From IMG/VR virus record IMGVR_UViG_3300013138_000028, positions 1 through 32,199 of that record: a stretch of 32,199 nt of DNA. One strand, written 5' to 3'. The notes under the pieces were generated by a model. It saw only the letters and a list, made by a program, of their open reading frames with translations, was not told the DNA's origin and searched no databases. This document shows, piece after piece, positions 1 through 16,975 of the stretch. Source of the stretch: a virus. The first letter of the stretch is position 1; every line of letters begins with the position of its first letter. A program made the position numbers and the translations under genes.

Positions 1-321
1 GATAGAGATAGTAGAGGAGCAGATTTAAATTTGCCTTCGTTACATATGATAGAAAAAATGATGAAAGACGATATAATAATTAAAGATTGCTTTATTGTAC
101 GTCAGTATTGTATTGATAAATATGTGTATTCTTTCTATATAGAAGTAAGAGAGGAATTGCTTGATCTTCATAAAATTTCATATGAAGAAGTAATAAAAAG
201 TGTTAAGAAAGTATTACAAGAAATAATCAAATCATTAAATGTATCAATGCAAGGATATGGTATTATTAATCTTGCTAATGCTAAAACTATTTCAGGATAT
301 ACAAAAATCTACGTTAAGTAA
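1..321 (+). CDS. Hypothetical protein, C-terminal part (gene enters from left edge)
   Basis: The frame is open from base 1 (it begins DRDSRGADLN) to a TAA at 319-321, so the gene very likely starts outside the window; TTG 31 or ATG 46 would be internal. About 106 residues are visible. They are mixed acidic/basic with a predicted amphipathic helical stretch (SYEEVIKSVKKVLQEIIKSL), and the end is KTISGYTKIYVK. I recognise no family. The stop codon lies in the loop of a perfect 8-bp hairpin (310-317 with 322-329, loop GTAA), which marks the boundary with the structured non-coding region downstream. Confidence 0.6.
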   Translation, partial: DRDSRGADLNLPSLHMIEKMMKDDIIIKDCFIVRQYCIDKYVYSFYIEVREELLDLHKISYEEVIKSVKKVLQEIIKSLNVSMQGYGIINLANAKTISGYTKIYVK

Positions 322-329
322 TTAACGTA

Positions 330-2010
330 TAAAGGGTTACGTTGCCCTAACACAAGAACACGGCGTAATGTATATTGATGTCAATGATTTATTTATTTAC
401 GAACTTTCTAGAAGTAATGACTAAATAAATAAATAATACATGCTCGTAGTTATAATTACTTTTCGTTGTCGGAATGTCGACAGTTGATAAGAATAATCCT
501 AAACCTAAGCTTGCTACATATCTGCAACAGTTGGCAACTGTGAGCCGTATGGGAGTTGTCTATGGTAATGCAACTAGAAATACTAATTATAACATATACC
601 TTTATACATTCCGAAGACAGCGCTGGAGGTGAGATTCCTCGGACAATTCGCTAAGGCTGTTATTATTACTAAAGATAGGAATCGTTTTAATCTTTACTGA
701 AACTGTAAAGTATTATATACACTACTGGGAGTCGTAGTTAAGTCCATTGGGCTAAGTCTTTTTTATACGAAATCGGAGCACCCGATATTAGGAACTGACT
801 GATATAATTAAACGAATGAAAACTATACGCAATAAAATCTAGCACCCTGAGATTAATAATGGGAGTCAGCTACTTGGTAATACTCCAAGGTTGAGAGAAT
901 AGGCAAACGAGAATGCCGAAACTAGTTACAGGCAATAAAGGTTATATATCGCAAATATTTCCCTAAGTGAGTACTAGGTGTTGTTATATGTCAAGACTAA
1001 GATTTATTGAAATGTATGAGGCTTCGTGATGAGAATCCACCATAGTTTGCAAGAACTATCGTATCCAAGATAAACGGGATTGTGCTAGCCCCCGAAGAAC
1101 AAAAGGAGACTAATATTCTTTACTAATTACATATATTATAGTGTTTGCTTCTTTTAACAAGCAATTGTTAACTTTATAACCGTAAGGTGCGAGATAAAGA
1201 AGTTATAAAGGTAATATATGAATGCATTAATTACTATAGAATCTTCAATGTTTTAACTTTGTCTTTATCGCCAAATAAAGAGTCATTAAAATATTGCTGG
1301 TAAATTAGTTGCCATTAAAAAACAGGACAATAAAGGACCAAATTTTAGTCAATCATCATTACATTTGAGATTTATGAGAATGCTTAAATTCCATATGTTA
1401 TCAGATATATCGAAAAAGATGCATTTTGTGTAAGTCACCTGACTGTAGCAGTTTCTACAGTATGGCGTCCAAAACCATAGAACAAATACTGATTGAGGTC
1501 AGCAATTAAAATATTTAAACAAAATTTACGAGTTGATATTGTTAACTTATACTTGAATGATATGCAATGACAAGTAACTGTGTGAATTATCATTACTTTG
1601 ATATTAATTGCCTATATTATTAATATTATAAATAGTATAAAGGTTTGAAAGTATACTGTGAGAGCGAAGTAACAAGGTAAGGTCATTTCCAAACATTTGT
1701 TAATATATAAAGATAGGTTATATATAATAGCGCATAGAGTGAAATCTATGATGTAGCAGTATATTGAGTATATAATAATATTGCGGTAAAAAATAAAATT
1801 AGGAATTCATACCCAACAGAACATAAACATGGGTATTGGTGTGGAAGAAAGTCCACATGTAGCGTTGGGTTAGGATGTAACCCTTCTGTCAATCATACCA
1901 GATTTATCAGAGCTAAAACATTCAGAGTCAAGTATACCTATAGGTGAGCGGTTTACGGTTGTAGCAAACAATTATGTTCTCTTCTCTCCTAATCTATGCT
2001 ACATTTTTTA
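330..2010 (+). ncRNA. Long structured non-coding region; candidate large ornate RNA(s)
   Basis: About 1.7 kb with no ORF of 60 codons or more on either strand. It is visibly richer in G+C (roughly 40-48% in the lines at 601, 841 and 1021) than neighbouring coding lines (about 27%). Perfect helices are dense: 387-399/422-434 (13 bp), 470-477/606-613 closing a ~140-nt domain, 527-532/536-541, 617-621/656-660 around 626-629/637-640, 772-776/782-786, 873-877/885-889, 902-905/914-917, 1042-1047/1054-1059, 1172-1180/1202-1210 (9 bp), 1442-1448/1455-1461 (7 bp), 1733-1738/1745-1750, 1840-1845/1852-1857 inside 1812-1817/1864-1869. It ends at a terminator-like stem. I did not find a complete group I core (no convincing R/S pair), group II domain V or rRNA. 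Large phage RNAs such as GOLLD and ROOL are the closest known concept; a replication origin is an alternative. Transcribed strand and number of molecules are inferred. Confidence 0.5.
1960..2010 (+). terminator. Terminator-like stem with T-run at end of the structured region
   Basis: TGTAGCA (1960-1966) pairs perfectly with TGCTACA (1997-2003) and is followed at once by six T (2004-2009). The 30-nt loop is longer than usual, so this could instead be the closing helix of the preceding RNA. It lies 24 bases before the next gene start and supports a + strand transcript ending here. Confidence 0.5.
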
Positions 2011-2033
2011 ATAACTTTTTAAACAGTTAAATC

Positions 2034-2462
2034 ATGGTAAAATATACATTTAAATTATCAGACAGTTACATACCTGATTTAACACAAAAAAAAGACGATC
2101 TATATGGTGGTGTTAAGTTGGTATATAAAATATACAAATCATTTTATATATCAATATTTAAAAAAGAATTAAATGTTTTCAATCTATATATAGGTAAAGA
2201 AACATTTCTCAGACCTTTTAAACATAACTGGGATAAAAAACGATATTGGTTACCCAAACCTTATTGGGGCAAAATACGCCACCCGTTAATAAGACTATGG
2301 GTTGTTATAGATACTCATCTTTCTGATAAAAAGAAAGTGATACCTAAAACAGACCTTTCTCATCAGGATATTAAACTGTTTAATAAAAAATTTCGCAGTC
2401 ATCAATTAGCTAAATATTTATTTAGCAAATCAAATAAATTTCAATTATTACCAATCAATTAA
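2034..2462 (+). CDS. Hypothetical protein (142 aa)
   Basis: ATG start and TAA stop. The protein is basic and rich in aromatic and Lys residues (for example KKRYWLPKPYWGKIRHPL near residues 67-84), with no signal peptide or membrane segment. It is the first gene after the non-coding region, and the next gene begins 11 bases after its stop, so the two are probably co-transcribed. I do not recognise a family. The high Lys/Arg/Trp content would suit a nucleic-acid or virion-associated protein, but that is only inference. Confidence 0.65.
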   Translation: MVKYTFKLSDSYIPDLTQKKDDLYGGVKLVYKIYKSFYISIFKKELNVFNLYIGKETFLRPFKHNWDKKRYWLPKPYWGKIRHPLIRLWVVIDTHLSDKKKVIPKTDLSHQDIKLFNKKFRSHQLAKYLFSKSNKFQLLPIN

Positions 2463-2472
2463 ATTGTACAAA

Positions 2473-2922
2473 ATGAAAAAAAATGATGCATCTGTTCATG
2501 TTGAGGTAAGTATAAACCTCACAGAAGAAGAAAAACTCCTCATTCCAAGACCAGGAGAAATAGTCTATGTTATACAGCCTTATTGTGTAGACGATAGTGA
2601 AGAAGAAAATGAAACTAAAGAAAGAAATCCCAAACTTGTACCAATTCTTGGCTATAGTTACACAAAAGTTCCTGTAAAATCATCAGTTCTTACCGATGAA
2701 CTTGATGAAGTACGTGTAAATGGTGATTTCAGAATTCCTCTCAAAAGGAAATTTTCTCCAAGTGACAGAATGAGAACTAGGGTATTTGTTTCTGAATCAG
2801 AAGCTAAGGAAGAATACAAAACTCTCATGGAAGCTCAGATAAGAGTTGCCAAAGAACGTTTTGATAAGGCTCGCAACGATTATGAATATCTTGTCGAAGC
2901 TCTTGAAGAAGGAAACCATTAA
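2473..2922 (+). CDS. Hypothetical protein (149 aa), acidic with C-terminal helix
   Basis: I chose ATG 2473 over the upstream TTG 2464 because it gives a normal start (MKKNDASVHVEV) just after the preceding gene. Residues ~1-100 look beta-rich with an acidic patch (DDSEEENETKE). The last ~50 residues (ESEAKEEYKTLMEAQIRVAK and onward) form a charged helix likely to coil. There are no membrane segments. The codon composition is less AT-rich than that of most neighbours, resembling the genes at 7771 and 5184, which may mark highly expressed structural or early proteins. No family recognised. Confidence 0.7.
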   Translation: MKKNDASVHVEVSINLTEEEKLLIPRPGEIVYVIQPYCVDDSEEENETKERNPKLVPILGYSYTKVPVKSSVLTDELDEVRVNGDFRIPLKRKFSPSDRMRTRVFVSESEAKEEYKTLMEAQIRVAKERFDKARNDYEYLVEALEEGNH

Positions 2923-2928
2923 AAAAAA

Positions 2929-3032
2929 TTAAGCTTTGAAATTACTAGATTGATAGTATCCGGTAGTCGTACCAAAAATTTAGTATATAGGAGTAAAAAT
3001 TCGGCTACTGATTTTACTCCTTCAAAGCTTAA
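2929..3032 (+). promoter_or_regulatory. Structured intergenic RNA with possible pseudoknot
   Basis: A perfect 12-bp helix (TTAAGCTTTGAA 2929-2940 with 3021-3032) closes a ~100-nt domain. Inside it is a perfect 9-bp hairpin (GGAGTAAAA 2990-2998 with TTTTACTCC 3012-3020). The 13-nt loop of that hairpin contains CGGCTACT (3002-3009), which can pair over eight positions (two wobble pairs) with GGTAGTCG (2962-2969). The element lies 33 bases before the next start, so it is either the leader of the 3066 gene or the 3' end of the preceding transcript. No T-run follows it. No known riboswitch class recognised. Confidence 0.5.
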
Positions 3033-3065
3033 ACACATTAAATTGTGATAAACTATTAAATAAAA

Positions 3066-3653
3066 ATGAGAATGAAAAAGTTAATAGCATTGTTATTAAT
3101 GTCTGTTTTTACTACTATTATGTCATTTGGACAACAAAGTAAGCAGAACTATGCTGGTTCAGCAAAAAATGATACATTGACTATTAGCATGATACTGATG
3201 GATAAAGTACAAACACCTGTTCTTAAAAATCTTCAAACAGATTTAGCTAAATTGATGGAAAATCAAAATAATACTACAGGTGATATAGCAAATATTTTAT
3301 CTCCATTAAAAAACAGTATCATTGCTTATACTAAGGAAATTGAAAATAGAAATAAGAATGACAGTTTATTTGTTACATCTTATTTTGGTTATTATAATAA
3401 AGAAGTGAAAACTGTAATTCAACGACAGTATATTTTAAATATAATTCCACTGCTAGTTGCTTTCACATTTTTTATATTATTTTATATTCGATTACCTAGT
3501 CAAAAGCCATTACCGGTTACAGGATGGAGTTTATTAACAGGATTAAAAGTATTACAAATTTTAGTAATATACTATATTCTTAAAGAATTACTAACACTAC
3601 TATTTAATCCTGATTATAATATAATTCATACTTTAACCAGGTTCTATATGTAA
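3066..3653 (+). CDS. Exported/inner-membrane protein with signal peptide and two TM segments
   Basis: 195 residues. The N-terminus MRMKKLIALLLMSVFTTIMSFGQQ is a typical Bacteroidota-style signal peptide (basic start, hydrophobic core, SFGQ cleavage zone). Residues ~25-120 are a polar, helical, probably periplasmic region. Two hydrophobic spans follow: ~122-142 (ILNIIPLLVAFTFFILFYI) and ~157-181. The overall plan is an exported protein anchored at its C-terminus. It is followed after one base by the next gene and, about 850 bases on, by a secreted M23 peptidase. A lysis role (holin- or spanin-like) is possible but unproven, and I recognise no family. Confidence 0.7.
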   Translation: MRMKKLIALLLMSVFTTIMSFGQQSKQNYAGSAKNDTLTISMILMDKVQTPVLKNLQTDLAKLMENQNNTTGDIANILSPLKNSIIAYTKEIENRNKNDSLFVTSYFGYYNKEVKTVIQRQYILNIIPLLVAFTFFILFYIRLPSQKPLPVTGWSLLTGLKVLQILVIYYILKELLTLLFNPDYNIIHTLTRFYM

Positions 3654-3654
3654 T

Positions 3655-4251
3655 ATGCGATCACTAATATTAACAAAACTTCAAAAGAAAAAACTTAAGG
3701 AGGTTATTCTTTACTTATTTCCTAAATACAAATATGTAAATATAAATAAGGATGGTATAATCTCCTTAAGAAAATCTTTTTGGTGGTACATATTTAATGT
3801 ATCTATAAAATATGACATCACAGAAATGTGCCTTGTTCAAATACCAGAAAGATTAGAGAAATTAAAATCTAAATCAGATGAATATGAAAATGTATTTCCT
3901 ATACATTCGCATATTATCTTAGATTTTTTTCATTTGCGTAAACCAGATTTGGTAATTAATTATATTTATGATGCTTTTATAAAAGCTAAATATGGTATAA
4001 TAAAAACATACTGTATAACACATAATATATTACCAGAAAAAAGATATACACTATTTTCATCAGAAGCATTAGTGTTATCTCCTTTATCTCCTAGTTATAT
4101 TAAAAGTCAATTATCAAAATGGAAAAATGTAACTAGTAATCAGTTACCAGCATTGAGAAAAAATTATCTCAATATGTGGTTTAAAAAAGAAATAAAAGAA
4201 CAACTCAATATGCTATACAATATAAAAATGCGTATAGCACTTTCATTTTAA
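3655..4251 (+). CDS. Hypothetical protein (198 aa)
   Basis: ATG start one base after the preceding TAA, so translational coupling is likely. The protein is Lys-rich and aromatic (RKSFWWYIFNVSIKYD near residue 40) with no clear signal peptide or membrane span. The mid-region contains HSHIILDFFHLRKPD (~83-97) with several His residues, but no complete metal site that I recognise. It is the last gene before a GC-rich hairpin and the tRNA-like gene. Function unknown. Confidence 0.6.
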   Translation: MRSLILTKLQKKKLKEVILYLFPKYKYVNINKDGIISLRKSFWWYIFNVSIKYDITEMCLVQIPERLEKLKSKSDEYENVFPIHSHIILDFFHLRKPDLVINYIYDAFIKAKYGIIKTYCITHNILPEKRYTLFSSEALVLSPLSPSYIKSQLSKWKNVTSNQLPALRKNYLNMWFKKEIKEQLNMLYNIKMRIALSF

Positions 4252-4278: not shown

Positions 4279-4363
4279 AGTCTAGTAAGTTTTAAATGGT
4301 AAAACTCTTATTATGGATATAACTATCAAAGTAAGGTTATAGGTTCGATTCCTATCTAGACTA
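4279..4363 (+). tRNA. tRNA-like gene, isotype not assignable
   Basis: The acceptor strands pair perfectly (AGTCTAG 4279-4285 with CTAGACT 4356-4362, discriminator A). U8/A9 follow, then a D-arm with the GG pair (AGTTTTAAATGGTAAAACT). The T-arm is textbook (ATAGG-TTCGATT-CCTAT, 4339-4355). The middle is odd. The only anticodon-like stem is TTAT/ATAA (4308-4311/4319-4322) around TATGGAT, which lacks the usual U33, and 16 bases remain for a variable arm (possible ACT/AGT stem). The 85-nt length would suit a class II tRNA. No CCA is encoded directly after the discriminator. It may be a functional divergent phage tRNA or a tRNA mimic. Confidence 0.6.
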
Positions 4364-4504
4364 CTAAGGAAATCAAAAAATCATACTCCAAAAGGAAACA
4401 ATCAAACAAGTATCCTCGTATAAGTTATTACTCGTTTGTGCCTCAAACACAACGTAAACAACGGTAATTAATATAATTACCAAGTATTAATTAATAACAA
4501 ATAT

Positions 4505-5723: not shown

Positions 5724-5757
5724 AGGGCAGGGGCGTTGAACGTCCCTTGCCCTTTAT
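5724..5757 (+). terminator. Strong intrinsic terminator
   Basis: AGGGCA-GGGGCG (5724-5735) pairs with CGTCCC-T-TGCCCT (5741-5753) around a 5-nt loop, giving 12 pairs with one bulge, followed by TTATTTAT. It ends the 5184 transcription unit and lies just ahead of the reductase start. This argues for ATG 5768 rather than the in-frame TTG 5747, which falls inside the stem. Confidence 0.8.
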
Positions 5758-5767
5758 TTATCTATTT

Positions 5768-7747
5768 ATGGAAAGATTTAAGTTAAAAGAAGAATTTATT
5801 AATAAGTATAAAAATATACAACCACCATTTGGTTTTAATGGTCTCGGTGAATTGGTTTATTTAAGAACCTACTCCAGACTCAAAAATAATGGTAAAAATG
5901 AAGAATGGTACGAAACAATAGAACGTGTAGTTAATGGACTATACAATATACAAAAAGAACATATTCTAAATAATAATTTAGGATGGAGTGAAAGTAAAGC
6001 TCATGAAAGTGCGGAAGAAATGTATGATAGAATATTCAATATGAAATTTCTACCAAGTGGCAGATCTTTATGGGCTTTAGGTACATCTCTAATAACAGAA
6101 AAAAAGTTATATGCTGCACTAAATGCTTGCTCATTTGTGTCTACTAAAAACATTGATACTGAATTTACCAAACCATTTGAATATATGATGGATATGGAAA
6201 TGTTAGGTGTAGGTGTAGGTTTTGATACAAAAGGTGCAAGTAAAATAATTATTAAAGAACCTAATTTTAATACTTTTGATTATATTGTACCCGATAGTAG
6301 AGAAGGATGGACAGAATCATTAGCATTACTATTAAATGCATACTTTAAAGGAGACCCAATGCCTATATTCAATTATTCAGAAATAAGACCAGAAGGAACT
6401 CCAATTAAAACATTTGGTGGTAAATGTCCAGGTTATAAACCATTAGAAGATTTACATAAAGGTATAATGGAAAAATTAGATGCTCAAATAGATAAACCAA
6501 TTAGTATTACTAATATAGTTGATATAATGAATATGATAGGAGTCTGTGTAGTATCAGGCAATATTCGTAAATCTGCTCAAGTAGTACTTGGTGATACATC
6601 TGATGAATATTTAAAATTAAAAGATTATAAATGGGATACTTTAACTGAAACATTTAAAGGTAGTCAAATAAAAAGAGCTAAATTTGGTTGGACGTCTAAT
6701 AACAGCATTATAGCTGAATTAGGTATGGATTATACAAAAGTAGCTGAACAAACAGCTTTAAATGGTGAACCAGGCTATTATTGGCTAAAAAATGCTCAAG
6801 CTTACAGTCGTTTAGGTGAAGTAGATTGGAAAGATCATAGAGCAGTAGGGGCTAATCCTTGTTTGGAACAAACATTGGAATCTTATGAAATGTGTTGTTT
6901 AGTAGAAACATTTCCTACAAGACACAAAGACATAGAAGATTTTACTAGAACATTAAAATTTGCTTATTTGTTTGCAAAAACAATAACTTTAGGTCAATGT
7001 CATTGGCCTGAAACAAATAGAGTACAATTAAGAAACAGACGTATAGGTACATCAGTTAGTGGTATTGCTCAATTTCTTGAAAATCATTCTATTCATGAAT
7101 TGAAACAGTGGCTTAATATAGGCTACAATACTATTAAAATGTACGACGATATATACTCTGAGTGGCTTGCGATACCAAAATCTATAAAAGTTACTTCTGT
7201 GAAACCTAGTGGCACAGTGTCATTGCTTGCTGGTGTTACTCCAGGTATTCATTTTCCAGAAAGTAACTATTATATTAGGAGAATCAGATTAGCTAAAAAT
7301 TCAAATTTAATTCCTTTATTAAAAAAAGCTGGATATAAAATTGAAGAAGCTAACGAAGATCCAGAAACAACGCTTGTTGTAGAAATTCCAGTATATGCTG
7401 GTAATTGTAAGACAATAAATCAAGTAACTATATGGGAACAGTTACTATTGGCGTCTTTTCTACAAGAGCATTGGGCTGATAATCAGGTATCTTGTACAAT
7501 AACTTTTAAAGAGTGGGAAAAGAATCAGATTAAACCTGCTCTAGAGTTTTTCCAGTATAAATTGAAAGGTGTAAGTTTTCTACCTAAAGCTAATTCTATT
7601 AGTTATCCACAAATGCCATACGAAGAAATCACTAAAGAGAGATATGAAGAACTTGTAAAACAAATTAAGTCCTTTAATAGCAAAGAAATTACAGAGGATA
7701 GCAAACCAGAGCTCTTTTGTGATAACGAGTCGTGTATTTATGTTTAA
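5768..7747 (+). CDS. nrdJ: Adenosylcobalamin-dependent (class II) ribonucleoside-triphosphate reductase
   Basis: 659 residues; it makes deoxynucleotides for phage replication using B12. The class II monomeric reductase pattern is complete: C121 in NACSFVST, GVGVGFDTKG (~147-156), GNIRKSAQV (~264-271), NPCLEQ with N363, C365 (thiyl position) and E367, C376 as the second active-site thiol (11 residues on, as in Lactobacillus RTPR C408/C419), and KPSGTVSLLAGVTPG. The C-terminal shuttle cysteines are C651 and C656, with the same spacing as RTPR C731/C736. It is slightly shorter than the ~740-residue prototype. ATG 5768 was chosen because the upstream TTG lies in a terminator. The gene ends 23 bases before the next start. 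Confidence 0.93.
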   Translation: MERFKLKEEFINKYKNIQPPFGFNGLGELVYLRTYSRLKNNGKNEEWYETIERVVNGLYNIQKEHILNNNLGWSESKAHESAEEMYDRIFNMKFLPSGRSLWALGTSLITEKKLYAALNACSFVSTKNIDTEFTKPFEYMMDMEMLGVGVGFDTKGASKIIIKEPNFNTFDYIVPDSREGWTESLALLLNAYFKGDPMPIFNYSEIRPEGTPIKTFGGKCPGYKPLEDLHKGIMEKLDAQIDKPISITNIVDIMNMIGVCVVSGNIRKSAQVVLGDTSDEYLKLKDYKWDTLTETFKGSQIKRAKFGWTSNNSIIAELGMDYTKVAEQTALNGEPGYYWLKNAQAYSRLGEVDWKDHRAVGANPCLEQTLESYEMCCLVETFPTRHKDIEDFTRTLKFAYLFAKTITLGQCHWPETNRVQLRNRRIGTSVSGIAQFLENHSIHELKQWLNIGYNTIKMYDDIYSEWLAIPKSIKVTSVKPSGTVSLLAGVTPGIHFPESNYYIRRIRLAKNSNLIPLLKKAGYKIEEANEDPETTLVVEIPVYAGNCKTINQVTIWEQLLLASFLQEHWADNQVSCTITFKEWEKNQIKPALEFFQYKLKGVSFLPKANSISYPQMPYEEITKERYEELVKQIKSFNSKEITEDSKPELFCDNESCIYV

Positions 7748-12076: not shown

Positions 12077-12352
12077 ATGAATTTATATTACTTTAATCCA
12101 AATAATTATGACATGACATACACAGTCATGGCTAAGAATATAGAAGAAGCTAAAACTTTACTATTAAAATATTTTTTTGATATAGCCAAAAAAGATCCAT
12201 TTAATACAAAAAATGATGGAGAAATATATGACTCTTTTGAAATGAAAGAATATCATAAATGGAAAAATGCATTTGATTTAAATATTTTACCAAATAGTTA
12301 TACAATAGATGAATATAAAGAAGGTGAAGTATTAGTAGGAGAAATTTGTTAA
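12077..12352 (+). CDS. Hypothetical protein (91 aa) upstream of DNA polymerase
   Basis: ATG start 14 bases after the long hairpin. The small protein MNLYYFNPNNYDMTYTVMAK and onward is mixed alpha/beta and acidic, with no membrane span or known motif. Its TAA overlaps the polymerase ATG by one base (TAATG at 12350-12354), so the two are translationally coupled, suggesting a role in replication or in setting polymerase level. No family recognised. Confidence 0.65.
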   Translation: MNLYYFNPNNYDMTYTVMAKNIEEAKTLLLKYFFDIAKKDPFNTKNDGEIYDSFEMKEYHKWKNAFDLNILPNSYTIDEYKEGEVLVGEIC

Positions 12353-13461
12353 TGATTTATATATATGATATAGAATGCTTCCCAAATTATTTTGGGGTAA
12401 CGTTTAAAGACGTAAAAACAAAATATATACAAAATTTTATACTATATCATAGTTATCAGAATGAACAGAATAATAAAAACGATATTGACAAATTAATTGA
12501 GTTTGTCGGTAGAAAGAAAAACAAATGGTTTGTAGGTTATAATAATAAATCATTTGATAATCAATTAATAAATTATATTTATACAAATTATCAAATACAA
12601 AGTATATTTTCTATAGAAGAAAGAACAAAAAATATACATGAATTTATGATGTCTATAATTAATGAAAAAGATACTGAATTTAAATATAGACTACCCTTTC
12701 AATCTGTAGATTTAATGCGAGTAGGTAATACACAACATAAATCTTTAAAATTAGTAGCAGTAAACATTAACTGGCCATTAATACAAGATAGTCCTATACA
12801 TGCTGAACAAATAGTAAAAGATGAAGATTTAGAGGAAATATATAAATATAATTTAAACGATGTTGAGATCACTGAAAAGTTATATCATACATTAAAAGAT
12901 GATATAAACGTAAGATGGGAAGTAGGTCAAAAATATGGTATTGATTTAATGAGTGAACCAGATAGTGGAATGGCTAATCGCCTACTTGAAAAAATGTATA
13001 GCGATGCATCTGGTATACCTATTAAAGAATTAAGGGATATGCGTACAGAACGTAAAATAATACATTATGAAAATATCGTATTTCCTGAAATTAAATTTAC
13101 AACACCAATATTAAATGAACTACTTAAAGAAATTAGATCTCAAAAGTATTATAAAAATCAACCATATTTTAATAAAGTAGTAGTATTTAATGGAGTAAGA
13201 TACAAATTAGGTATAGGTGGTATACATTCTGACGATTTGCCAGGAATATTTACCAATGAAAATGATATTAAAATAATAGATTGCGACATCGTATCAATGT
13301 ATCCTAATTTAGTAATAAATAATAATTTATATCCTGCTCATTTAAATAGAACTTTCTTATCTTTATACAAAAAAATAATAGATCAAAGATTACAAGCTAA
13401 AAAAGAAGGTAGAAATACAGAAGCTTATGTACTAAAAATATTAGTAAATTCTGTATTTGGT
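12352..13461 (+). CDS. Family B DNA polymerase, exon 1 (exonuclease domain, motifs A and B)
   Basis: Encodes residues 1-370 of a predicted 622-residue replicative polymerase (join with 13762-14520). The 3'-5' exonuclease motifs are present: ExoI YDIECFPN (D6, E8), ExoII VGYNNKSFDN (D69), ExoIII YNLND (Y166, D170). Polymerase motif A is DIVSMYPN (D312, S315, Y317). Motif B is KILVNSVFG (K362, N366, G370), with Phe in place of the usual Tyr. The exon ends after the GGT codon of G370. Without splicing the frame would stop at 13465-13467, truncating the protein before motif C. The start overlaps the preceding stop. Compact size agrees with phage PolB enzymes; protein-primed versus primase-dependent use cannot be settled, but a primase is encoded nearby. 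Confidence 0.9.
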
Positions 13462-13761
13462 CGATAAATATTTGAATTAATCGAAACTTTTATTTTTTAT
13501 ATGAATATTATAAAGATTATATTTTTAAATATGCATCAGCCCCTTTGAATAGTAATATTCAAAAGGAATCGGATGAATTCGGTGAAGGTCTAAGTCTTAA
13601 TAAAGATATGATAATACCGAGCCAAGTATTAACTACAGTTAATGAAGGTGTAACGACTACTGGAGAAGTATAGTCTTCTTAATTACCAGCAAGAGCGTCC
13701 GACATCCAATAAATTGGATGATGATATAGTCTAGCCTTTATAGAAATATAAAGTATAAGCG
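13462..13761 (+). ncRNA. Group I self-splicing intron in the DNA polymerase gene (no ORF)
   Basis: 300 nt separating PolB motif B from the rest of the palm domain. The core is recognisable: P-like AATTCGGTGAA (~13574), Q-like AATACCGAGCC (~13612; P4 pairing CGGT/ACCG), R-like TAACGACTAC with GACTA at 13654-13658, and S-like GATATAGTCT with TAGTC at 13726-13730 forming P7. Peripheral hairpins CATCCAA/TTGGATG (~13702-13719) and CTTTGAATA/TATTCAAAAG support folding. Predicted ends are U13461 (5' exon) and G13761 (terminal G); joining gives NSVFG-KTMFEHHW in perfect frame. I could not identify a convincing P1 guide sequence, so the 5' site rests on frame and motif restoration. Confidence 0.85.
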
Positions 13762-14520
13762 AAAACAATGTTTGAACATCATTGGTTATATGATCCTTTA
13801 GTAGGATTAAGAGTAACTATAAATGGCCAATTATTCATGTTAATGTTGATAGAACAATTAAGTGAACAAGGTTTCAAAGTTATATCTGCAAATACTGATG
13901 GATTGGTAACATTAGTACCAGAAAATAAATACGAAGATTATATAAATATATGTCAAAAATGGATGGATTATACTAAATTTATACTAGAATATACAGAATA
14001 TAATAAGTATATAAGAAGAGATGTAAATAATTATATTACTATTAAAACTAATGGTACCATAAAAGAAAAAGGTGAATTTTTACAATACGAAAAAATTACT
14101 TTAAGACAAGGTATTGATAAACCTATAATATCTAAATCATTATATAATTTCTTTGTTAATAATACACCAATAGAAAGTACTATATATAATGAAAATAATA
14201 TATATAGTTTTTGTATAGCAAAAAGAGTAGATAACAAATTTATTAATGAATTTCATACTCTTGAAAATAATATACATAAAGTAGATGAATTACAAAGATC
14301 TATAAGATTTTATATCTCTACTAATGGTGGTACATTATATAAAGTTGATAGAGAAAATAATAAATATATCAATTATTGTGTTGGACGTAAAGTAACTATA
14401 TTAAATAATAACAAAGATATTAAGGATATAGCAGACTACAATATAGATTATGGTTACTATATAAAAGAAGCACAAAAAATAATTGATGAAATTATTAATC
14501 CACAATTAACATTATTTTAA
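13762..14520 (+). CDS. Family B DNA polymerase, exon 2 (motif C, thumb)
   Basis: Encodes residues 371-622. It begins KTMFEHHWLYDPL, completing the motif B helix, and carries motif C in VISANTDGLV (catalytic D416), the last carboxylate needed for nucleotidyl transfer. The remaining ~200 residues are the palm/thumb, ending NPQLTLF. There is no separate promoter or ribosome site before ATG 13768, which fits an exon rather than an independent gene. The next gene begins directly after the stop, with no gap. Phase and residues match exon 1 across the predicted intron. Confidence 0.88.
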   Translation, partial: KTMFEHHWLYDPLVGLRVTINGQLFMLMLIEQLSEQGFKVISANTDGLVTLVPENKYEDYINICQKWMDYTKFILEYTEYNKYIRRDVNNYITIKTNGTIKEKGEFLQYEKITLRQGIDKPIISKSLYNFFVNNTPIESTIYNENNIYSFCIAKRVDNKFINEFHTLENNIHKVDELQRSIRFYISTNGGTLYKVDRENNKYINYCVGRKVTILNNNKDIKDIADYNIDYGYYIKEAQKIIDEIINPQLTLF

Positions 14521-15965: not shown

Positions 15966-16975
15966 AAAACCAAAATAATTGTTTAATTATGAAACTCTAT
16001 TTTTTAATATACGTATAATAATTAAAATATTGTATATGTGGAAAAAAGAAAGAGTATATCCAGAAATAACAAGTAAACAAAAAGAATTTTTAATAGGATG
16101 TATTATGGGAGATGGTACTTTACAAAAACAACCAACTTCTAGATATCCAGAATTTACTTGTTCACATGGAGAAAAACAATATGAATATGCTAAGTGGAAA
16201 TCTAAAATTTTAGATTGGCCAAATACATATTTAAAACAATTTAAAAGAAAAACACCGAATAAGAAAACAGGGAAATATTATTCTTATTGTTATTTAAGAA
16301 CAATAGTAAATAAAAATCTACAAGAATTATATAATGAATTCTATTTGAATAAAACAAAAAGAATAACTGAAAAAATAATGGAAAATTATACTGATTTTTC
16401 ATTAGCAGTACATTATATGGATGATGGATATATTCAATCAAATTCATATAATTTTGCAACATGTAATTTTGATGATCAAAGTATAAATATATTTAGAAAA
16501 TATTTATATTTAAATTTTGATATAGAAACTACTAAACAAAAATATAATAGAGTAAGAGTTAGAAGTAATTCTATTGAAAAAATGAATGCTTTAATAGAAA
16601 AATATATTCTTGAAATTCCTTGTATGACTTATAAATTAATAAATACGTCTCATAATTCCGTTAATTGTCTGGGAACTCCTGAAGAGGACAATCAGCAGCC
16701 AAGCTCTTGTGGTGACACAGAGAAAGGTTCAACGACTAGTAGTGAGTCTCAAGTAGACAATAATTCTACCACGAAAGCGGAACAATCTAAAACAGGAAGG
16801 GATTATTATTTAGAAGAGTTAGGATCAGATAAAGTAACAACTTTGATTGTTAATCCCATGTCTAAACGATATCCTCAAATAATATTAGATTGAAGATATA
16901 GTCTGAACTGCATATATAACTTAAGGTGTAAAAAATGCAGATGTAGAAAATAAACATTTCTACGATAACATATTG
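15966..16975 (+). mobile_element. Group I intron with homing endonuclease ORF, in the helicase gene
   Basis: 1,010 nt. All four conserved elements are classical: P TTAATTGTCTGGGAA (~16661), Q AATCAGCAGCC (~16690-16700), R GGTTCAACGACTAG (~16726-16739) and S GAAGATATAGTCT (~16892-16904), with P7 GACTA/TAGTC. The guide sequence GTCTCATAATT (16647-16657) pairs with the 5' exon end AATTTTGAGAT (15955-15965) at 10 of 11 positions, with the hallmark U-G wobble at the splice site. The terminal G is 16975. Splicing gives NFE-MLSSKQVGR in frame. The endonuclease ORF therefore occupies the P1 loop and continues into the core. Similar P/Q/R/S wording to the polymerase intron suggests the same intron subgroup. 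Confidence 0.92.
16036..16893 (+). CDS. LAGLIDADG homing endonuclease (intron-encoded)
   Basis: 285 residues from ATG 16036 (MWKKERVYPEITSKQKEFL); an in-frame TTG at 15979 is a less likely start. Two LAGLIDADG motifs are present: LIGCIMGDGTLQ (D26) and LAVHYMDDGYIQ (D129/D130). The spacing and the HYMDDG form resemble the single-chain LAGLIDADG DNA endonuclease family found in introns. It would cut intronless helicase alleles and drive intron homing. The conserved domain ends near residue 210. The last ~75 residues (Ser/Thr/Glu/Gln-rich) are encoded by the ribozyme core itself, and the TGA stop lies within the S element. The tail may be non-functional read-through. Confidence 0.88.
   Translation: MWKKERVYPEITSKQKEFLIGCIMGDGTLQKQPTSRYPEFTCSHGEKQYEYAKWKSKILDWPNTYLKQFKRKTPNKKTGKYYSYCYLRTIVNKNLQELYNEFYLNKTKRITEKIMENYTDFSLAVHYMDDGYIQSNSYNFATCNFDDQSINIFRKYLYLNFDIETTKQKYNRVRVRSNSIEKMNALIEKYILEIPCMTYKLINTSHNSVNCLGTPEEDNQQPSSCGDTEKGSTTSSESQVDNNSTTKAEQSKTGRDYYLEELGSDKVTTLIVNPMSKRYPQIILD

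Follow-up and report, generated by a model that had tools for sequence, protein, structure and literature searches.

What does a crAss-like phage keep in some 1.7 kb of DNA that holds no credible open reading frame (ORF)? The stretch belongs to a virus record of 32,199 bases, analysed over its entire length and referred to here as the window, which is considered a fragment of a crAss-like phage because a 2319-aa protein encoded on its minus strand has its nearest counterparts among RNA-polymerase-associated proteins from such phages. Between positions 322 and 2033 neither strand contains an ORF of more than 52 aa, reading TAG or TGA as a sense codon opens no long frame, and in the whole 32 kb this is the sole gap of at least 700 bases without an 80-aa ORF. 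An original prediction had placed here a structured RNA of the kind of GOLLD and ROOL. Very large structured phage RNAs such as these two are few, and their functions are open. From the analysis presented below, the stretch 322-2033 (plus strand) is most probably a large structured non-coding RNA and not a decayed gene.

Gene neighbourhood of the gene-free stretch

The proposed RNA locus lies among the replication-module genes of a crAss-like phage. Upstream, positions 1-321 (plus strand) contain the 3' end of a gene truncated by the contig start; in two related phages, L002 and L039, the equivalent slot holds a conserved 464-478-aa gene adjoining the RNA (L002 27-1463; L039 1046-2440), its match to the window gene being positional only. 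For this upstream gene of the relatives a sub-threshold AMP-binding match (E 0.09) is the only one obtained, and an AlphaFold model with a pLDDT of 30 was set aside. Downstream, a 142-aa gene (2034-2462, plus strand) is conserved as the immediate neighbour of the RNA throughout the three-member clade, and three further conserved genes of 152, 195 and 198 aa (2464-4251, plus strand) keep their order in L002 and L039. The tRNA-like gene that had been noted 2.3 kb on is a tRNA-His gene at 4279-4364 (plus strand), 2.25 kb downstream of the RNA locus.

Elsewhere in the window, the family B DNA polymerase is encoded by two ORFs (12346-13467 and 13768-14520) lying 300 bases apart, which match consecutive parts of one PHROG and are represented by one ORF in a relative (G002, L040:17904-19766); an intron between the two is possible, with no Rfam match at the gathering threshold. 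A LAGLIDADG homing endonuclease gene (15979-16893) is located in the replication-gene block. The ribonucleotide reductase (5747-7747) has its closest counterparts among annotated phages in actinobacteriophage enzymes of 43-47% identity, which suggests transfer. Standard tmRNA genes are situated about 1.6-4 kb downstream of related ribonucleotide reductases in the other phages L009, L012, L014, L018, L019, L021 and L024. In the contigs L031 and L032, which have a distant reductase, several stretches of more than 1 kb contain no standard-code ORF, maybe owing to another genetic code.

Signals in the window sequence

By itself, the window sequence proves little past the absence of genes; comparison was decisive. 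The raised G+C content that had been claimed amounts to 32.3%, which is modestly above most of the window, but some genes reach the same range. Perfect local hairpins show a mild excess only (33 of 5 bp versus 17.6 ± 5.6 in dinucleotide shuffles), and the two helices singled out in the prediction, 470-477/606-613 and 1812-1817/1864-1869, are indeed perfect complements, but not above chance, with complementary 8-mers in the region numbering 77 versus 55.6 ± 10 in shuffled sequence and 6-mers 792 versus 709 ± 44. These helices are not the good evidence for a structured RNA. Equally, the suggested terminator-like end was not recovered, as the scan finds only 741-753 and none at the 3' end, a frequency equal to chance expectation. 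Folding of the region as a single sequence in 150-nt windows yields a stability no greater than that of coding DNA or shuffled sequence, and blastn of the region against phages returns no matches.

Relatives of the window clade

The route to L002 led through the ribonucleotide reductase of the window, to which the L002 enzyme is 64% identical. A profile search with this enzyme retrieved one close relative and 30 distant phages without the locus, in several of which gaps of about 1 kb are partly tmRNA and tRNA regions, and homologue searches using the neighbouring 142-aa or 152-aa protein alone gave no related loci. L002 possesses an ORF-free stretch of 1589 bases (1464-3052), and the gene that comes next is homologous to the 142-aa gene of the window. 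The block GGCTTCGTGRTNNRAATCCACC, common to the window and L002, when scanned over viral contigs matched, apart from the contig of L002, a single new one, L039, where an ORF-free stretch of 1594 bases (2441-4034) precedes the same downstream gene. A gene-free interval is thus held at one place in three related phages, with a length of 1712 nt in the window, 1589 nt in L002 and 1594 nt in L039, a homologous downstream gene of about 145 aa and, beyond it, three to four further homologous genes in identical order.

L002 and L039 keep base pairing well past controls. For these two, RNAalifold gives -174 versus -77 ± 8 in column shuffles, a z of -12.4 on the plus strand, with -7.0 on the reverse strand and -1.9 for the upstream coding gene taken as a control. 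Many helices are changed on both sides, for example from GUAGC/GCUAC to AUGAC/GUCAU and from CCAACAUU/GAUGUUUGG to CCUUCAUG/CAUGUAAGG, and the fold derived from L002 alone finds 65.1% of cells paired in L039 versus 36-41% when slid. An underpowered enumeration of ungapped stems in the same pair showed long perfect stems not above shuffles.

The window's own copy has about 43-45% identity with L002 and L039 once anchored and is too diverged for whole-length alignment, a global MAFFT alignment of the window and its relatives being unreliable until anchored. Three collinear elements of the L002/L039 RNA are kept in it. The first anchor, taken from the alignment, is the conserved block GAATGTCGACAG at 472-483 (plus strand), which reads GAATGTCAACAG in L002 and GAATGTCAGCAG in L039. 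A T-loop hairpin enclosed in an outer helix (617-660, plus strand) constitutes the second, with the hairpin GAGG-UGAGAUU-CCUC at 626-640, in place of GGG-UGGAAUU-CCC, followed by CUAAGGC. Its outer helix (617-621/656-660) is ACAGC/GCUGU in the window versus GUAGC/GCUAC in L002, compensatory changes that put A-U for G-C and C-G for U-A; a covariance model built from L002 and L039 only (R2) finds 617-660 in the window region with 7.1 bits and an E of 0.97, weak alone. The third element is a further T-loop hairpin, AGGCTTCGTG-AUGAGAAU-CCACCAT (1017-1045, plus strand, hairpin 1026-1040), on which the L002/L039 profile has its best nhmmer match anywhere in the window (E 0.44); the motif of this element, exact in the window, retrieved from the viral contigs none but that of L002 and the new syntenic member L039. 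Over the whole window neither R2 nor R1, a model of this last hairpin element, has a significant match, and for R1 with filters off the true site is third in rank. Each match alone is weak (E 0.97 and 0.44), and the case for the window copy rests on order, spacing and synteny. The window's copy exceeds those of the relatives by about 260 nt in its 3' part, and only there.

A gene-free interval throughout the Suoliviridae

In cr4_1 (NC_055893), a 2147-base interval without annotated genes (60885-63028) is found in the DNA-polymerase gene block with a tRNA downstream. Used as a blastn query, it recovers the corresponding interval from further Loutivirinae and fragments of it from Uncouvirinae, Bearivirinae, Oafivirinae and Boorivirinae. 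In five Suoliviridae subfamilies an unannotated or nearly unannotated interval of 1.8-2.5 kb occupies one conserved gene position, preceded in order, as far as the loci are annotated, by a sigma factor (where in view), in most by a gene of about 120 aa, by a 455-571-aa gene and usually by a gene of about 130-190 aa, and succeeded by two genes of about 160-215 aa, which form a fusion in cr53; homology of the flanking proteins extends across the subfamilies. A tRNA gene after the two genes following the RNA occurs in several of these phages (cr4_1, cr114, cr125), and further queries identified a locus of the Suoliviridae type also in pig, macaque and lemur records. The annotation of crAss001 (Steigviridae) has no comparable interval, nor do the stretches next to the DNA polymerase in the Intestiviridae crAss002, cr107 and Rudgehvirus.

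In cr113 and cr109 the RNA interval contains an annotated antisense ORF of about 145 codons (L053 3941-4378 and L054 3943-4380, both minus strand); a minus-strand ORF of about 145 codons is absent from the interval in cr53, cr52, cr60 and cr56. Permuted tmRNA genes are present upstream of the sigma-factor gene (L063 12044-12307, minus strand; L064 2032-2300, plus strand), and cr4_1 has a second gap of about 1.6 kb without annotated genes after tRNA-Leu (L047 23980-25559, corresponding to NC_055893 73980-75559).

The Suoliviridae interval has covariation support in held-out genomes and an excess of G-U on the gene strand. Comparison of homologues for covariation, which the original prediction had proposed among its checks, gives for an alignment of eight Loutivirinae a z of -13.2 and 128 pairs changed on both sides versus 51 ± 6 in shuffles (maximum 66). 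A structure derived from three genomes and tested on five held-out ones leaves 77.5% of cells paired versus 33-43% when slid, including 104 of the 154 cells new on both sides; in the reverse test 75.9% are paired, and 88 of 116 cells new on both sides. Among the variable pairs of the eight Loutivirinae, departures to G-U number 39 versus 7 to A-C, and therefore the gene strand is the RNA. As the minus strand also folds above chance, in the way complementary stems would, the strand call rests on this ratio and on the strand difference in L002 and L039.

T-loop-type hairpins, a form defined after being seen in the window clade and cr4_1, occur 19 times in 13 RNAs versus 2.1 ± 2.0 expected, a ninefold enrichment, and in both the window clade and the Suoliviridae they lie mostly at relative positions 0.18-0.27 and 0.53-0.77. 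In the Suoliviridae hairpin T2 the loop is kept (mostly UGGAAAU) on stems that read GAGG/CCTC, TAGG/CCTA, TGAG/CTCA or TGGT/ACCA; all four stem pairs are changed on both sides, and 93.8% of cells are paired versus 37-60% when slid.

One RNA or two

In our estimation there is an even chance that a single RNA has diverged into the window form and the Suoliviridae form. Gene block, approximate size, strand relation and T-loop layout are common to both groups, with T-loop hairpins at two similar relative positions; the 1.7 kb of the window are slightly below the 1.8-2.5 kb of the Suoliviridae, the gene neighbours are similar, not identical, and comparison of the genes yields one borderline match only (d4 versus d2, P 0.0017 of 54 comparisons). 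On the other hand, nhmmer in both directions, k-mers and blastn find no sequence similarity between the two RNAs, and T-loop hairpins, as common RNA modules, could be convergent, as expected if unrelated large RNAs have separately arisen in a similar slot, a reading whose chances we put just short of even in view of the equal genome region and strand relation. The broader proposition, that a single ancient RNA of 1.6-2.5 kb, not described before, is common to the Suoliviridae and a related crAss-like lineage, is plausible at somewhat below even chances. If true, this RNA would exceed in size every structured phage RNA class known to us and would be a core part of very common human gut viruses, acting as an RNA machine or RNA-built particle in replication.

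Alternative explanations

Conserved position, compensatory changes above controls, T-loop hairpins and the empty Rfam search together bear out the prediction of a structured RNA locus, which could nevertheless be composed, as that prediction allowed, of two adjacent RNAs, or of more, either a 5' and a 3' RNA or an operon leader and an independent RNA. A consensus structure that is mostly local (spans below 450 nt), a 3' domain in L002/L039 with a closing 16-bp helix pair of its own (2846-2866/3007-3024) and the restriction of the window copy's additional length to the 3' part would suit such a division; with an interval that is wholly ORF-free at each locus and stays together as a block in all Suoliviridae subfamilies examined, and with no consistent internal terminator, we consider the division possible, if rather unlikely. 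Inverted repeats occur also at replication origins, and the location within a replication-gene block (polymerase and primase genes in the window) would be appropriate for a DNA-level element such as an origin, a packaging site or a promoter array with inverted repeats. This is improbable, since the surplus of G-U over A-C in the Loutivirinae is not to be expected unless one of the strands acts as RNA, the consensus loops of the T-loop hairpins stay as their stems covary, and 1.6-2.5 kb is large for an origin.

The crAss-like phages carry many introns, and local echoes of rRNA motifs can be seen by eye in the region, such that a diverged form of a known mobile or catalytic RNA (group I or group II intron, HEARO, RNase P, rRNA fragment) comes to mind; three members lack any Rfam match at relaxed threshold, and for the rRNA-like motifs the SSU rRNA model finds none at E ≤ 10 with positive controls, which renders this reading very improbable. 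Nothing is interrupted by the interval, because the flanking genes are whole in L002, L039 and the Suoliviridae. Finally, antisense ORFs of 118-152 codons in a few members, those annotated in cr113 and cr109 among them, might point to a protein gene that is decayed, recoded, spliced or read with a programmed frameshift, an exceedingly improbable explanation for an interval that covaries, in which conserved blocks are interspersed with variable ones and with indels, and no long frame is kept across relatives on either strand, even with TAG or TGA as sense.

A possible mode of action

The preferred explanation is that the interval would be the gene of a structured non-coding RNA, very large and multi-domain, that reads in the direction of the flanking genes; this RNA may be transcribed together with its replication-module neighbours or from its own promoter and would persist as a stable folded RNA. 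In known RNAs T-loops dock with each other or with further loops, and the recurrent T-loops suggest a compact globular fold. Docking of this sort might join the T-loop hairpins into a compact particle, which could function during infection as a free-standing RNA scaffold, either self-assembling like ROOL and GOLLD or holding proteins of phage or host, tRNAs or ribosomes. Docking and scaffold role are put forward jointly and tentatively, as a suggestion that may well not hold, and the confidence in a structured RNA covers its identity, not this mechanism. By analogy, ROOL and GOLLD would be the closest functional precedent for a scaffold; roles as decoy or sponge, packaging RNA or ribozyme are also conceivable.

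Comparison with known large RNAs

As predicted, the RNA corresponds to no known class by model search. The Rfam search that had been recommended matched the window region to none of 4227 families, relaxed threshold included; the stretches of the window, L002 and L039 have no match at E ≤ 10, group I and group II introns and HEARO included, and a covariance-model scan of L002, L039, cr4_1 and eight loci left the interval RNA without a match. In the Suoliviridae loci Rfam identifies only tRNA and permuted tmRNA, outside the interval. No description of the RNA was found in the open-access literature, subscription papers and preprints lying mostly outside the search.

The T-loop motif occurs in the T arm of tRNA, RNase P, rRNA and T-box RNAs. 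Shared with these are 7-nt loops of the form U-N-N-R-A-N-N, which sit on covarying stems and recur in every group; the motif is a module, not a family, and here it is found in a long phage RNA without tRNA or RNase P match. OLE, a large ornate bacterial RNA of about 600 nt, likewise has a conserved neighbour gene, a trait shared with the RNA described here, but no covariance-model match connects the two.

GOLLD is a very large phage-encoded structured RNA of unknown function often located near tRNA genes, and ROOL a large ornate RNA of phages and prophages, equally of unknown function, which forms RNA-only nanocages; both assemble into RNA-only cages (PMC12286853). The likeness to these two that had been proposed stands as to kind, a very large phage RNA with a tRNA gene nearby, but not as to membership, as no covariance model matches. 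With GOLLD, the RNA shares a location near tRNA (tRNA-His in the window; tRNA in cr4_1, cr114 and cr125); in contrast to GOLLD of about 0.8 kb, it is about twice as long (1.6-2.5 kb), lacks a tRNA island and a covariance-model match, and is held family-wide at one gene position in the Suoliviridae. Compared to ROOL, it is at least 2.5 times longer, equally without covariance-model match. In kind a very large phage RNA like GOLLD and ROOL, it would be a new RNA family, and at two to three times their length and fixed throughout a crassvirus family, it would represent a core unannotated component of common gut viruses.
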